From: Scenedesmus sp. ARA3
Taxonomy: Eukaryota; Chlorophyta; Chlorophyceae; Sphaeropleales; Scenedesmaceae
Direction of reading: 5' to 3'
NCBI GenBank assembly: GCA_004335835.1
Contig: RWJK01001907.1
Span: forward strand, 39,317 to 103,316
Length of the DNA stretch: 64,000 nt
Part shown: positions 1-63,628 of the stretch, one piece after another
Layout: every line of letters begins with the position of its first letter
Numbering within the stretch: the stretch's first letter is position 1
Notes under the pieces: generated by a model
The model's input: the letters and a program-made list of their open reading frames with translations, nothing else
Databases searched by the model: none
Told to the model about the DNA's origin: nothing
Position numbers and translations under genes: made by a program

Positions 1-3000
1 CATCAGCCATGGCCAGGCTTGCTGCCATGCTGGCTGCGTTGATGGCTGCCAGCTGCCCTGGCACCTCCTTCAGCAGTGCCTTGAGGATGCGCGACAGCTT
101 GTTGTTGGGCTGCGTGACCACCACGCTGCGCGCCTCTGCAGCACAGGAAGAAATATATGCAATGTGCTTTGTTGAATATGGGGATGCGGGACAGCTTGTT
201 TGTTGGGCTGCGTGACCACCACGCTGCGCCTCTGCAGCACGAGAGAGGAAACAGATGCAAGGTGATTTGTTGTAAATGGAGATGCGGGACCGCTTGTTGT
301 TGGGCTGCGTGACCACCACACTGCGCGCCTCTGCAGCACAAGAAGAGACATATGCAACGTGATTTGCTGTAAAGGGGGATGCGGGGCAGTTTGTTTTTGG
401 GCTGCTGACCACAACGCTGCGCGCCTCTGCAGCACAAGAAGAGACATATGCAACGTGATTTGCTGTAAAGGGGGATGCGGGGCAGTTTGTTTTTGGGCCG
501 CTGACCACAACGCTGCGCGCCTCTGCAGCACAAGAAGAGACAGATGCAACGTGATTTGCTGTAAAGGGGGATGCGGGGCAGTTTGTTTTTGGGCTGCTGA
601 CCACAACGCTGCGCGCCTCTGCAGCACAAGAAGAGACAGATGCAATGTGGTTTGTTAAGAATGGGGATGCGGGACAGCTTGTTGTTGGGCTGCATGACCA
701 CCATGCTGCGCGCCTCTGCAGCACGAGGGGGAATATATGTGGTGCTAATGTGTTAGATTGCTGAGAGCTGACGCAGGGGCGCATGCTGGAGCTATGTGGA
801 GTGCGTGACCACCGCGCTGCACGCCTTTGCAGCACGAGAGGGGGTAGGGGAGGGGGTGAGAGGTGTGACGCATTGCAATACGGAGGAAGCATGCAGAGGG
901 TGAGTTGGAATTCACACTGTTGGAGCTGCCAGTGTGGATGTGGTGTTTTACGCTACTACTTGGCAGCATGGGTAGTGTACTGCTTGACCTGCCGTGCTGG
1001 GCGCACCGTGCACATCCAGAACACACAGCAGCATGCATAAAGCACAGCCGCTGCTGCCGCCGCTGCTGTGACAGCACTGCACATGTGGCCGACAAGGTCG
1101 CCCTCACCGTACAGTGCGTCACGCACGGTCTCCTCCACACGTGCCTCCAGCTCCTCATACATACAGCAGGCATATATGCATGCGCAAAGCACAGCCGCTG
1201 TTGCCGCCGCCGCTGTTGCTGTCAACTGCTCATTGGACTAGCAATGTTGAACTCACCGTACAGCGCGTCGCGCACAGTCTCCTCCACGCGTGCCTCCAGC
1301 TCCTCATACACCCGCGGCTCCAGCTCAGCGTAGCAGGGAGGCACCTGCAGCAGCAGCAGCAGCAGCAGCAGCAGCAGCAGCGCTGCGGGTCATCGTCGTT
1401 GCGCATGTTTTGCCGTTCCACGCATGTTTCAGACTGCCGTGCATATTTGACACATCGCCGCAGCACTGCTAGGCTTAGTATATCTTCCTGAAGGCATGAC
1501 AGTGCATGGCACCCTTGGTATTATGCAGAAGCATACCAACATGCCAGCTGCCAATACAGAGCCTCCTCCTCCTGGTGCTGCTGCCAGGTCCGCACCTGGA
1601 TGCAGGCCATCTCCCTGGCAGGCAGCACCGGCCCGAAGAAGGGCCGCCAGCAGCTGGCATCAGGCAGTGCCCAGCTGATGTCCCAGGGGTGGCCGCTGAG
1701 CTGGATGTTGGCCCACACGTTGTCACAGCTGTACAGCGTGCCCACCTGCAGGCGGCAGCAGCAGGAGCATATAATTCTTTGAGACCAAAAGCACATCGCG
1801 GCCCACAGGATGTTGAACACCATAATGATTGTTATGCAGCAGCAGCGGGTGATGGCGGAGGTCAGCCGTTGGTGGATATGTGCTCTATGCACTGCAAGGA
1901 CCAGCTGCACAACAGCACACAACATACACATCAGCAGTTTTGCAGTGCTTGCTCACCTCCCTGAGCTCACAGGCAGGGTCCCTGACAGGCACGCAGTGCC
2001 CACTCAGTGGGTTCCACAGCCGCAGCTTCGACACATCAAACGGCCGCTGCGCAGCAGACGCTGCTGCTGCCGCTGCTGTTGCTGGGTTGGCCGATGTGCC
2101 AGCCTGCTCCGCCCGTTGCTGCGCCTGCGCCGCTGCTGCTGCTTGCTGCAGACGCTCGCGCAGCCGCTGCTGCTGTGGCGGCTGCTGTTGACTGCTGGCA
2201 GTGCCTGCTGCTGCATCTGCTGCTGCTGTTGCTGCGCTGGGCTCTGCAGTACCAGGCACTGAGGGGGCAGCTGGCAAAGAAGAGGATGCAACAGCTGCTG
2301 GTGCAACCAGGGGCCGGCCTGTTGTCAGCACAAACGCCGCCTGCGCTCCTGTAGTAGATGTGCCCAGCACAACATAAGCCTGCAGCAACAGCAGCAGCAG
2401 CAGCAGCAGTGCTCACATTGTGCTGCCGAGCCAAAACATAAGCAGGTGATATTCGTTCTTCTCATGTAGAGGGCTGGCTACCTGCCGAGGGAGCACGCAC
2501 AGCCAGCCAGCAAATGCAAGTGCTCCTCATGGCTACCCCCAGCCACCACAATACCACAGCCCTGCCGGCGCTGCCTGTCCCAGCAACGCTCAAACCTACC
2601 TCCTGGCCCAGCTCCATGCAGTAGCCAGCCAGCTACCTCACCTCTGAGCTTCTTACCTATAGTGCCCAGACCCACAAGTTGCTCTTACTCTATCTTTCCC
2701 TCACTCACCCTCATTTGCACCCCTCCATCCTCAGCACCAACCCACCTCCTGGCCCATCTCCATGAAGTATCCAGCCAGCAGGTGTGCATGCTCCTCATGG
2801 TCACCCCCAGCCAGCTCCACGAAATCTGCATTGCTGGCCCACACGTTGCTGCGCCGCTTGCCGAACGACGCGTCGTCAACGAACGGCACGTGTGCCACCC
2901 AGCGCGCAGCAGCCAGCATCAGCTGCTCCAGCGAGGAGTCGTCCGGCTGCAGCTGCAGCAATGATGCACAGCGGCAGTGCAAGCATCATAAACCAGAGTC

Positions 3001-61151: not shown

Positions 61152-63628
61152 ATGGACACAAAGGTCGTGTTGCCTCTGCTGCTGTTGTGCTCAGCGCTGG
61201 TATCTGTGCAGGGCAGCAGGGTCATTGACATATCGTCGAAGCTGATGGGAGGAAGAAGACGGAACGGTTTGACACCGGTAGAAGACAGAGGCTGCTCGTC
61301 TACAAGCAGTAAGACATCCTGCTGATCTGCAAGCAGTAGCGACGCTCTGCGTATCACATTATGCGTATACAACTGGCAAAGCTGATATGACCGCTGTCAA
61401 GCTTGCAGTACCGTCGCCGGTGTACGCAGCTGCCAGCCTGCATCTGCAGCAGCACTGGGCCTGGCACAGCAGCAGTGCCTCATGCAGCTCTCGACAGCGG
61501 TACAAGCACTCGAATTCGACATATATTTCTTTTATAACTAACAAATAACACGCGGCAACTCGCTGTCTGTGGTGCTGCAGAGGTGGCTGCTGTCTTCTCG
61601 CTCTCCCAGGCTTCCCCTGCTGCCTGCCTGGCCTCACCAGTAGCAGCACTCTACAGCCGACTCTTCATCATCACTGCCCAGGGCCCCTCCTGCAAGCCAC
61701 CCTCCTACTGGGCCATCAGCCCAGCCTCCAATTCAGCAGCCAGCAACCCGGCGCTGCCTTTCAGCTATGCAGCCTCACCTCAAATTGCCTGGAAAGATGC
61801 AGCAGGAAAGGCGCAGAGCTACCAGAGCTGGGATGTTGAGCTGTCACAGCGCCAGGACAGCAGCCCGGCGGCGCCCTGGGCTATGCCGGGCCCTGATCTG
61901 ACGCCGCTGCGCAACACCAGCCAGGGCCTGAAAAAGGTGTGTTTGTAGTCTGGAGGTGGGACTGGCCTGCTGTCACTGCTTGCGACACAGTTGGCCACCA
62001 ACTGTCGGACATCACTTGATTGCTGCAAGTATTGTTACCACGTGCGCAACACCAGGGCCTGCGCAAGGTGCGCTGTTTTAGTTTGGAGGCCGAACTGGCC
62101 TGCTATCACTGCTTGCGACACAGTTGACAGCATTTGCTTGCTGCAAGCACTGATAAAATGTGAGCAACACCAGCGAGGGCCTGCGTCAGGTGGGCGGCAG
62201 CGGCACTGCTGAGCAGGGCGGGCAGCAGCAGCAGGAGCAGTGCTGCAGAGCGCTGGTGGCTCTGTGGAGCAGTCCACTTGGCTGAGACATGGGGCAGGAC
62301 TAGAAAGGCAGCACACCAGACACGATTTAGCCTGTGTGCACTGCTGCAGCTGCCACCTGTGAATATCCTCACTTGTGAAACAGGCATGCTGCAACAGGCG
62401 GCACATGCCGCCCGACTCTGCTGCAGCACTGCTGCTGCTGCATAGCATACCCATCCCCCTTTGTTTTGCCATGCTGTTGCTGTGTCTCCTTGCAGATGCT
62501 GCCCTTCCTGCTGCCCCACCAATATGCCCTGCTTGACAACTCAACGGCTGTCAACCTGGCCCCATACAACATCAGCATGACAGCACATGGCTTCAAGGTG
62601 GGGGTTAGGGGCATCAGCAGCAGCATGAGCCTCAGTTTGTTATTTTGCATTGACTGTGTGCACAACCTATCGTGAAGTGAATTGACGCAGCTAGGCTAGT
62701 GAGGAACAGCCTGCTGATCTGCTTGTCCAAGGCCTTGACAGCTGCATGCGTCCCAATTCTACGGCAGGGCAACAAGACCTTGTCTCCAGCCAACTTGACC
62801 GTCACGAAAGAAGCGCTGCCGGATGACAACTGTAACATGACCATATGACTGTCAGACACAGCTTATCTGTTCGATGTCAACTCAAAAGTCCCCCGCCCTG
62901 GCTGCTGCTGTGTTTGCCTGCAGGCTTTCCTGCCTACAACCGGCTGCACCTTCACCTGGCAGATTGCAGCAGGCAGCTGGGCAGGCTTTGCATCTAACAA
63001 CAGCGTCACAGCACGCCCAGACCCCTCCAAGCCAGCCGGCTGGAGCAGCACCATGGCACACAACCTGCTGTGCCCAGCCGGCGCTGCCTTGCAGGGCAAG
63101 CAGTGCACCATGTGCAATGCAGCCAAGAACGAAGTCAGCCTGGCAGTTGCCTCAACAGCTTGCATGCGCTGCCCTGCTGGCACACGTGCAGCAGCTGGGG
63201 CCAGGGCATGCCTACCCGCCTGCGCAAATGTCAGCAGCACAAAGTTAGGCACCAGTAACTTCATCAACAGAATCAGTGACGCATCAGCGGACTGTGCTCC
63301 TGCAAAGTGTCCTGCAGGAAGCTGGCACAGCCTAATCAGAGACATGTGCATCGCCTCACAGAACGGCACCCTGTGCGTGGCAGCAGCAACTGGCCCTGCT
63401 CCTGCTGCTGCTGCCAACAGCAGCAGCAGCAGCAGCACTGGCCGGCCGACCTGCAAAGCCCCACCTGCTGCCGGCACTGCTGCTGCTGCTGCTGCTGCTG
63501 CTGGGGGTGCTGGTGGGGTTGGTGGCGCGGCGCTGCAGCTGGCCTCATTTAAGGTTGATGCTGCTGGCTGCCAGCCAGTGAAGCAGCTGGCTGAGTGGCT
63601 GACTGCAAGCAAGCGGCTGTCATTCATG
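61152..63628 (+). CDS. Secreted Cys-rich protein, partial at right edge
   Basis: Exons in frame, 61152-61308, 61581-61936, 62496-62597 and 62924-63628, give 440 residues. The last ends in a GTGAGC donor with no stop, so the gene continues past the window. The signal peptide is clear (MDTKVVLPLLLLCSALVSVQG). The middle has no domain I recognise (AALYSRLFIITAQGP, SYWAISPASNSAASNPALPF) but several N-glycosylation sites. From about residue 250 a Cys-rich block, LLCPAGAAL...KQCTMCNAAK and ACMRCPAGT...ACLPACAN, resembles the GCC2/GCC3 (ephrin-receptor-like) repeat of extracellular proteins. An Ala/Gly-rich run follows. A cell-surface or matrix protein is the inference. A possible extra exon at about 62773-62835 (GNKTLSPANLTVTKEALPDD) does not fit the frame. 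Confidence 0.7.
61900..62200 (+). repeat. Exon-edge array: Cys-rich gene exon 2 end plus donor, 3 copies
   Basis: The exon 2 end (RNTSQGLKK, donor GTGTGT at 61937) recurs near 62045-62072 (CGCAACACCAGGGCCTGCGC) and 62162-62193 (GCAACACCAGCGAGGGCCTG), each followed by an AGGTG-type donor. Confidence 0.8.

Follow-up and report, generated by a model that had tools for sequence, protein, structure and literature searches.

Why are the ends of exons, together with their splice sites, repeated inside the introns next to them? The question is raised by a 64,000-nucleotide stretch of the Scenedesmus sp. ARA3 genome (contig RWJK01001907.1, positions 39,317 to 103,316; hereafter, the window), which belongs to an 87.3-Mb assembly of 1567 contigs. 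Stretches of roughly 100-150 bases, with an exon part of median 52 nt, are duplicated here at exon-intron borders. The resulting arrays are restricted to the exon edge and the adjoining intron, introns with more copies are longer, and the copies decay with frameshifts. We incline to the explanation that the arrays are local duplications spanning the junction, which were rendered harmless by splicing and then amplified while decaying.

Copies of exon edges in the adjoining introns

The main sample consisted of the window and 20 other 10-kb stretches (264 kb in total), the latter positioned by hand on contigs encountered in a kinase search. A further set of 48 kinase loci comprised eight from the Pfam kinase search and 40 short ones at the match sites of that search. 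Exons were predicted with a hidden Markov gene finder, which was self-trained on the window together with loci L001-L028. The splice consensus it arrived at was AG/GTG.G for donors and TGCAG/ for acceptors (the slash marks the junction), and the median lengths were 133 nt for exons and 248 nt for introns. The self-trained models contain at least one likely false exon, at 53236-53298 of the window; it is absent from all five carbonic anhydrases compared and is most likely false. Exons shorter than 60 nt were dropped, with a cut-off of 45 nt for copy coverage, copy-by-copy alignment and the per-intron counts of exon-edge resemblance. Arrays were detected by Tandem Repeats Finder (TRF), self-comparison and copy-by-copy alignment of exon edges with introns, and the exon part of each copy was limited to at most 100 nt. 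Locus L063, which overlaps L008, was removed from later statistics. A gene called LRR was excluded from the copy statistics (divergence, classes, GT/AG, spacing, intron length, splice scores, and exon ends and phase), because some of its clusters may be coding repeats.

Self-comparison gave 151 matches at a score of at least 50, compared with none in dinucleotide-shuffled sequence; a preliminary description of the window had proposed shuffled introns as the control. Chance is excluded as the source of the arrays. In the 264 kb, there were 61 local duplication clusters: 57 lay on a predicted exon-intron edge, one was exon-intergenic and three were intron-only. The window held 29 clusters, 27 of them over a predicted exon-intron edge, which agrees with the at least 25 places counted in the preliminary description; one was exon/intergenic and one (20616-20810) intron-only.

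When exon edges were compared with the adjoining predicted intron, copies were detected at 48 of 932 junctions, and at 104 of 932 with a reach of 900 nt. No inverted copy was detected at the 932 junctions, and no edge was copied into an intron of another locus (0/932) or into a different intron of the same locus (0/726). In long exons, the edges were copied in 17 of 425 cases, compared with 3 of 425 for the interiors of the same exons. Copy coverage was 11-14% over the last 50 exon nucleotides, 12% over the first 10 intron nucleotides and 6-10% farther out, with the same course at donors and acceptors. The kinase loci, chosen by Pfam match, repeated the edge pattern (26/253 junctions).

BLAST may miss repeat offsets below about 50 bp, and TRF was therefore used for the census of repeat periods. 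Repeats with periods of 13-40 bp lay at edges in 3 of 80 cases and those of 41-80 bp in 0 of 1, whereas 19 of 20 with periods of 81-160 bp and 2 of 2 with 161-500 bp did so. The 81-500 bp class (21/22) thus differs from the 13-40 bp class (Fisher p = 1.3e-17), although long arrays touch edges more easily. Short-period repeats with 100% matches lie off the edges at 41647-41727 of the window (26 bp x 3.1) and at 1-167 of L023 (44 bp x 3.8). In L024 (7198-8032), one frame of an array with a 144-bp period stays open through several repeats of 48 residues; this is perhaps a real coding repeat.

Arrays in the window

By alignment, the unit of an array consists of an exon edge, its splice site and a piece of the intron. 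At the places named in the preliminary description, the arrays are real on both strands, in donor-side and acceptor-side forms, and TRF units measured 96-149 bp, with longer multiples. As for the gene names given there, CC2D2A and alpha-CA (the carbonic anhydrase) are backed by Pfam matches and CNNM by protein matches, whereas the Pfam match of the hydrolase stays below the threshold (23.6 bits; cut-off 34.2). The labels mTERF, LRR and Cys-rich come from the same source and are used as names only. The arrays are as follows.

82..843, minus strand: CC2D2A, acceptor-side array; real junction 135; copies 184-233, 281-330, 377-426, 473-522, 569-618 and 662-715; period about 97
1076..1310, minus strand: CC2D2A, donor-side; copy 1108-1161; source edge 1257
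2593..2779, minus strand: CC2D2A, donor-side; copy 2600-2633; source edge 2746
2921..3094, minus strand: CC2D2A, acceptor-side; copy begins near 3032; source edge 2952
3714..4013, minus strand: CC2D2A, acceptor-side; copies 3837-3878 and 3954-3995; source edge 3755
4207..4529, minus strand: CC2D2A, acceptor-side; several copies, one at 4427-4465; source edge 4242
16538..16889, plus strand: CNNM, acceptor-side; copy 16542-16640; source edge 16787
16913..17274, plus strand: CNNM, donor-side; copies 17022-17064 and 17165-17209; source edge 16962
17813..17961, plus strand: CNNM, acceptor-side; one copy; source edge 17931
18217..18532, plus strand: CNNM, acceptor-side; copies 18223-18275 and 18343-18404; source edge 18471
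18574..18828, plus strand: CNNM, donor-side; copies 18670-18726 and 18770-18822; source edge 18630; period 96
19675..19849, plus strand: CNNM, donor-side; copy 19793-19843; source edge 19725
30593..31442, minus strand: mTERF-named gene, donor-side array; source edge 31385; six (30613 to 31207) or seven copies, depending on the analysis
32639..32997, minus strand: mTERF-named gene, donor-side; several copies, one at 32817-32846; source edge 32968
33420..33666, minus strand: mTERF-named gene, donor-side; several copies; source edge 33624; period 101
42812..50170, minus strand: LRR-named gene, edge clusters at 42812-43095, 43305-44009, 44085-44651, 47146-47439, 47986-48568, 48638-49591 and 50029-50170; some may be coding repeats
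53786..54178, plus strand: carbonic anhydrase, donor-side; copy 54020-54099; source edge 53865
54389..55215, plus strand: carbonic anhydrase, donor-side array; source edge 54432; seven copies, 54489 to 55162; period about 103
58587..58751, plus strand: hydrolase-like gene, acceptor-side; copy 58600-58645; source edge 58706
60318..60551, plus strand: hydrolase-like gene, donor-side; copy 60441-60507; source edge 60384
61908..62195, plus strand: donor-side copy in the intron preceding 62190; source edge 61936

A duplication with an offset of 127 (42407-42781) covers the 3' end of the LRR-named gene and predicted intergenic DNA; it may mark an unpredicted intron or be a gene-end array. Protein P0001 runs from CNNM into residues like those of the next gene in the window (15604-28292), and protein P0122 of Tetradesmus obliquus, which belongs to Sphaeropleales, fuses the carbonic anhydrase with the hydrolase-like gene. 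Both joins are read as conserved gene order with fused annotations.

Frequency of the copies and intron length

The preliminary description held that most introns carry arrays; the actual share is 8-16%. Introns with copies numbered 15 of 93 in the window, where LRR copies were not counted and LRR introns were entered as copy-free, 20 of 248 in the other stretches and 10 of 87 in the kinase loci. Counted by junction, the window (39/177) is richer in copies than the other stretches (39/502; Fisher p = 1.7e-6). Outside LRR, 113 copies were found at 68 junctions, with 1-7 copies per junction. Their spread is uneven: there was no cluster in 9 of the 20 stretches (L009, L011, L012, L015, L016, L021, L023, L026 and L027), and L024 has copies in 5 of its 11 introns.

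The proposal that the arrays lengthen introns found support. The median intron length was 261 nt without copies (n=383), 405 nt with one copy (n=25), 543 nt with two (n=10) and 765 nt with three or more (n=10). This trend could also mean that longer introns merely hold more copies. When one spacing was subtracted from the 25 single-copy introns, 232 nt (n=11) and 308 nt (n=14) remained, compared with 325 and 386 nt when the exon part alone was subtracted. Pasting of the exon edge alone was rejected, because the whole-period subtraction fits the intron lengths better.

Decay of the copies

The copies differed from their exons at codon positions 1, 2 and 3 in 165, 160 and 356 cases (7.3, 7.1 and 15.7%). 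Indels in the copies were frameshifts in 57 cases and in-frame in 4, and a stop codon was present in 5 of the 81 indel-free copies. A coding function was rejected for the set as a whole by the frameshifts. Most copies have diverged; identity is at least 95% in 18 of 113. As the preliminary description had stated, GT or AG is usually retained (96/112), and its loss in the remaining 16 proceeds about as fast as change at other sites. The two classes of copies described below had synonymous shares of changed codons of 48 and 47%, and 44% is the calculated expectation if the copy is neutral and its exon tolerates synonymous changes only. By these sequence comparisons, the copies look largely neutral.

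Changes on the exon lineage, in which the exon differs from all its copies, were 0/0/11 at the three codon positions without LRR, L013 and L024, all synonymous, and 10/10/28 in all loci. Changes unique to a single copy were 57/40/98 in all loci. Protein constraint on the copies was suggested at first by their third-position excess, but the excess shrank without LRR and is largely explained by a constrained exon beside an unconstrained copy. A remainder persists.

Splice-site usage

Our own gene models, from which suspected array copies had been omitted by hand, were aligned with the proteins of relatives. In CNNM, for which the best listed protein matches are a EukProt protein and one from Raphidocelis subcapitata, the array junctions HGENAG/LGG, VYR/GSN and LFQ/TGNSH are continuous in the relatives, with no insert. 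The carbonic anhydrase model, the false exon aside, differs from P0122 in one residue before the fused tail of P0122, which places the source of the window in T. obliquus or a species very near to it. Its junction PYSER/E is uninterrupted in P0122 and, with one residue different, in P0121. The junction LSLKQ/W is uninterrupted in P0121, and P0123 and P0126 are similar; P0122 continues there into the hydrolase. No inserted copy was detected in the T. obliquus carbonic anhydrase at the two array sites covered. In CC2D2A, FK/LDVPP is uninterrupted in the relatives and DALY/EARSVVV in P0241; P0243 is five residues shorter there. Since the relatives' proteins cross the checked junctions without an insert, the outermost splice site is most likely the one used.

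Among 54 acceptor and 58 donor copies, 36 and 35, respectively, score no lower than the real site. On average, the real sites are better (donors, p = 0.0015; acceptors, p = 0.067). The median real score is reached by 43% of the copies, compared with 0.6% of random intronic GT, and the gene finder fitted a number of copies as small exons. The spacing of the copies disregards the reading frame, with the three remainders represented 33/29/27 times. Phase 0 is commoner among array donors than among other donors in the window, L001-L028 and the kinase loci (24/32 vs 229/434, p = 0.016 uncorrected).

Origin of the arrays

The arrays probably, though far from certainly, began as local duplications across splice junctions. 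The duplicated unit would take in the exon edge, the whole splice site and an amount of intron that varies, and its origin would be mutational. If splicing stays on the outermost site (the 5'-most donor or the 3'-most acceptor), as the proteins of relatives suggest, the extra stretch would therefore turn intronic and the protein would be unchanged; an equivalent duplication within an exon would get no such rescue. Each duplication would lengthen the intron by about one period, unequal exchange may raise the number of units, and the copies in the intron would decay under little constraint. This explanation covers the tolerance, growth and decay of the arrays.

Near-confinement to edges, a minimum spacing and a limit of homology at +6/-6 are left unaccounted for, and the following results weigh against the explanation. 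A model was set up with random duplications of 100-140 bp, of which only those inside an intron or spanning a single junction are kept; it places 42-58% of the survivors at edges, and 60-74% if edges are visible twice as long. Under this model, 58 edge-type clusters out of 61 have a probability of 1e-18 to 1e-5, and 21 of 22 TRF arrays at edges have 2e-4 to 0.01 under the lenient version with doubled detectability; these values are optimistic, because clusters within one gene are not independent. Thus, the observed placement exceeds what splicing tolerance predicts, and an edge-specific factor is missing. Of 113 neighbour spacings, one was 83 bp, 88 were 96-158 bp and 24 were 165-405 bp, in a census that is blind below about 40 bp; the near-absence of spacings below 96 bp is not accounted for.

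The two classes of copies add to the difficulty. The intron side is homologous as well in 65 of 109 copies, whereas in 44 the homology ends about 6 intron nucleotides past the splice junction. Because the classes were drawn by how alike intron bases 7-66 are, this limit is partly set by definition; its sharpness is not. In the 44 short-homology copies, donor positions +4 and +6 match at 0.61 and 0.83, compared with 0.30 and 0.29 for unrelated donor pairs. Exon identity is equal in both classes (0.903 vs 0.910, p = 0.63), and in L014 an exon part identical at 54 of 54 nt stands next to a spacer with little likeness. Simple tandem duplication with decay does not yield copies of the edge plus 6 nt. 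Either copying halts at the splice site, or the intron halves eroded while the exon halves are kept alike. Furthermore, exon-lineage changes without LRR alone were 7/7/20 (19 synonymous, 15 not), and changes unique to a single copy lean to third positions (35/36/65 without LRR; 23/20/34 without LRR, L013 and L024). With this excess, strict neutrality would fail unless the copies arose successively from an evolving exon; weak constraint would also produce it.

Alternative explanations

A duplication process of this lineage that is itself aimed at splice junctions, copying the edge with about six splice-site bases some 100-150 bp into the adjoining intron and serving as a major source of intron growth, is unlikely but has to be reckoned with, because the 44 short-homology copies hold the edge and splice site only and yet are no older by exon identity, and because spacings below 96 bp and long duplications off the edges are nearly absent. 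Exon-anchored concerted evolution, which we also hold doubtful, would let duplications occur everywhere; recopying from the constrained edge would keep intronic copies alike while their intron halves erode, and duplications in introns only or in intergenic DNA would vanish. It would explain why the homology of the 44 copies stops where the constraint on real splice sites stops and why exon identity is equal in both classes. The spacers of these copies are weakly alike, more so than mismatched controls (p = 0.011 and 0.001), two spacers searched against the genome matched only themselves, and the gain in intron length is close to one full period, all of which agree with it. However, no clustering of mismatches was detected within 89 copies (mean z 0.03), which lends conversion tracts no support, though a copy-wide tract would escape notice; copies that fall between the two classes are few, and the minimum spacing is not explained. 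Random tandem duplications of about 100 bp, tolerated only inside an intron or over a single junction, are improbable. Tolerance alone puts about half of the survivors at edges and the near-neutral decay is as expected, but the model probabilities given above are low for both the clusters and the TRF arrays, and short-period minisatellites occur off the edges whereas long-period ones do not.

Functional ladders of competing splice sites, which the preliminary description had proposed as a means of tuning isoforms, or small alternative exons are very improbable. Although many copies score like real sites, are modelled as small exons and, among donors, favour phase 0, frameshifts accumulate freely, GT or AG is lost as elsewhere, the spacing is blind to frame and the compared proteins, including the T. 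obliquus carbonic anhydrase, lack inserted copies. Intron gain from a duplicated AGGT-bearing exon segment, with the arrays as scars of birth, is a recognised route (PMC3443670), and a few intron ends do resemble the opposite exon edge. Such resemblance is nevertheless rare among 397 introns (the 3' end with the upstream exon end in 6, the 5' end with the downstream exon start in 3), array exons show no excess of AG ends (15/32 vs 271/434) or GT starts (10/36 vs 93/430), and copies are not limited to the far intron end; this origin is highly unlikely. Two-step splicing, in which each unit is removed as its own intron, requires exons ending in AG or starting with GT, and was rejected since array exons show no such enrichment. 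That the arrays stem from a mobile element (an introner) whose insertion left long target-site duplications is barely conceivable: some copies are two direct repeats flanking an unrelated spacer, but the matches listed for 84 spacers were low-complexity or same-locus copies, with no spacer repeat family among them, and the two spacers searched genome-wide found only themselves. We give equally little credence to an assembly artefact such as joined haplotypes. The assembly is in many contigs and near-identical copies exist, but most copies are diverged and carry frameshifts, unlike exon alleles. The two arrays searched are single-locus, with no second haplotype found for either, and the pattern recurs on independent contigs.

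Relation to known systems

In the potato RdRp gene, a tandem duplication across an intron-exon boundary was described by Ma, Lan and Niu 2016 (PMC4974935). As here, the duplication crosses the boundary and carries the parental splice signals along. There, it is one recent event, in which a new intron was made and part of the upstream copy stays exon, whereas the present arrays occur at 68 junctions outside LRR, on donor and acceptor sides, with several copies at some and no inserted copy in the checked proteins. Intron gain of the AGGT type (PMC3443670) likewise depends on a local tandem duplication within a gene that splicing renders harmless. In that case the two copies are exonic and enclose the new intron, whereas here the unit already contains the junction and an existing intron grows. 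Introners (PMC9860276) supply intron sequence throughout a genome and are reported from fast-evolving lineages, including green algae. They form families of similar inserts, whereas the units here match their own junction. Single boundary-crossing events of this kind are known in print.

Like minisatellites, the arrays consist of direct tandem units, are locus-specific in the two cases searched and vary in copy number. Unlike the 13-40 bp minisatellites of this genome, they are tied to edges, and unlike coding or alternative exon repeats, their copies fail to keep the frame. Small tandem duplications involving splice sites reportedly affect many genes, in work by Zhuo in 2007 on tandem arrays as a source of alternatively spliced human introns and, it is said, by Gao and Lynch in 2009 on internal gene duplication. 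No earlier description of arrays such as these was found in the literature searched, in which coverage of subscription journals was poor.

The lengthening of introns, and the survival of genes that receive insertions near exon ends, have so far mostly been inferred from single events. In this alga, growth in steps can be read from 8-16% of introns, at donor as well as acceptor sites. For annotation, the arrays are a warning, since ab initio gene finding modelled some of the copies as small exons. They make testable how the spliceosome settles on the outermost of a set of like sites, and why exon edges, and hardly anywhere else, receive duplications of this length.

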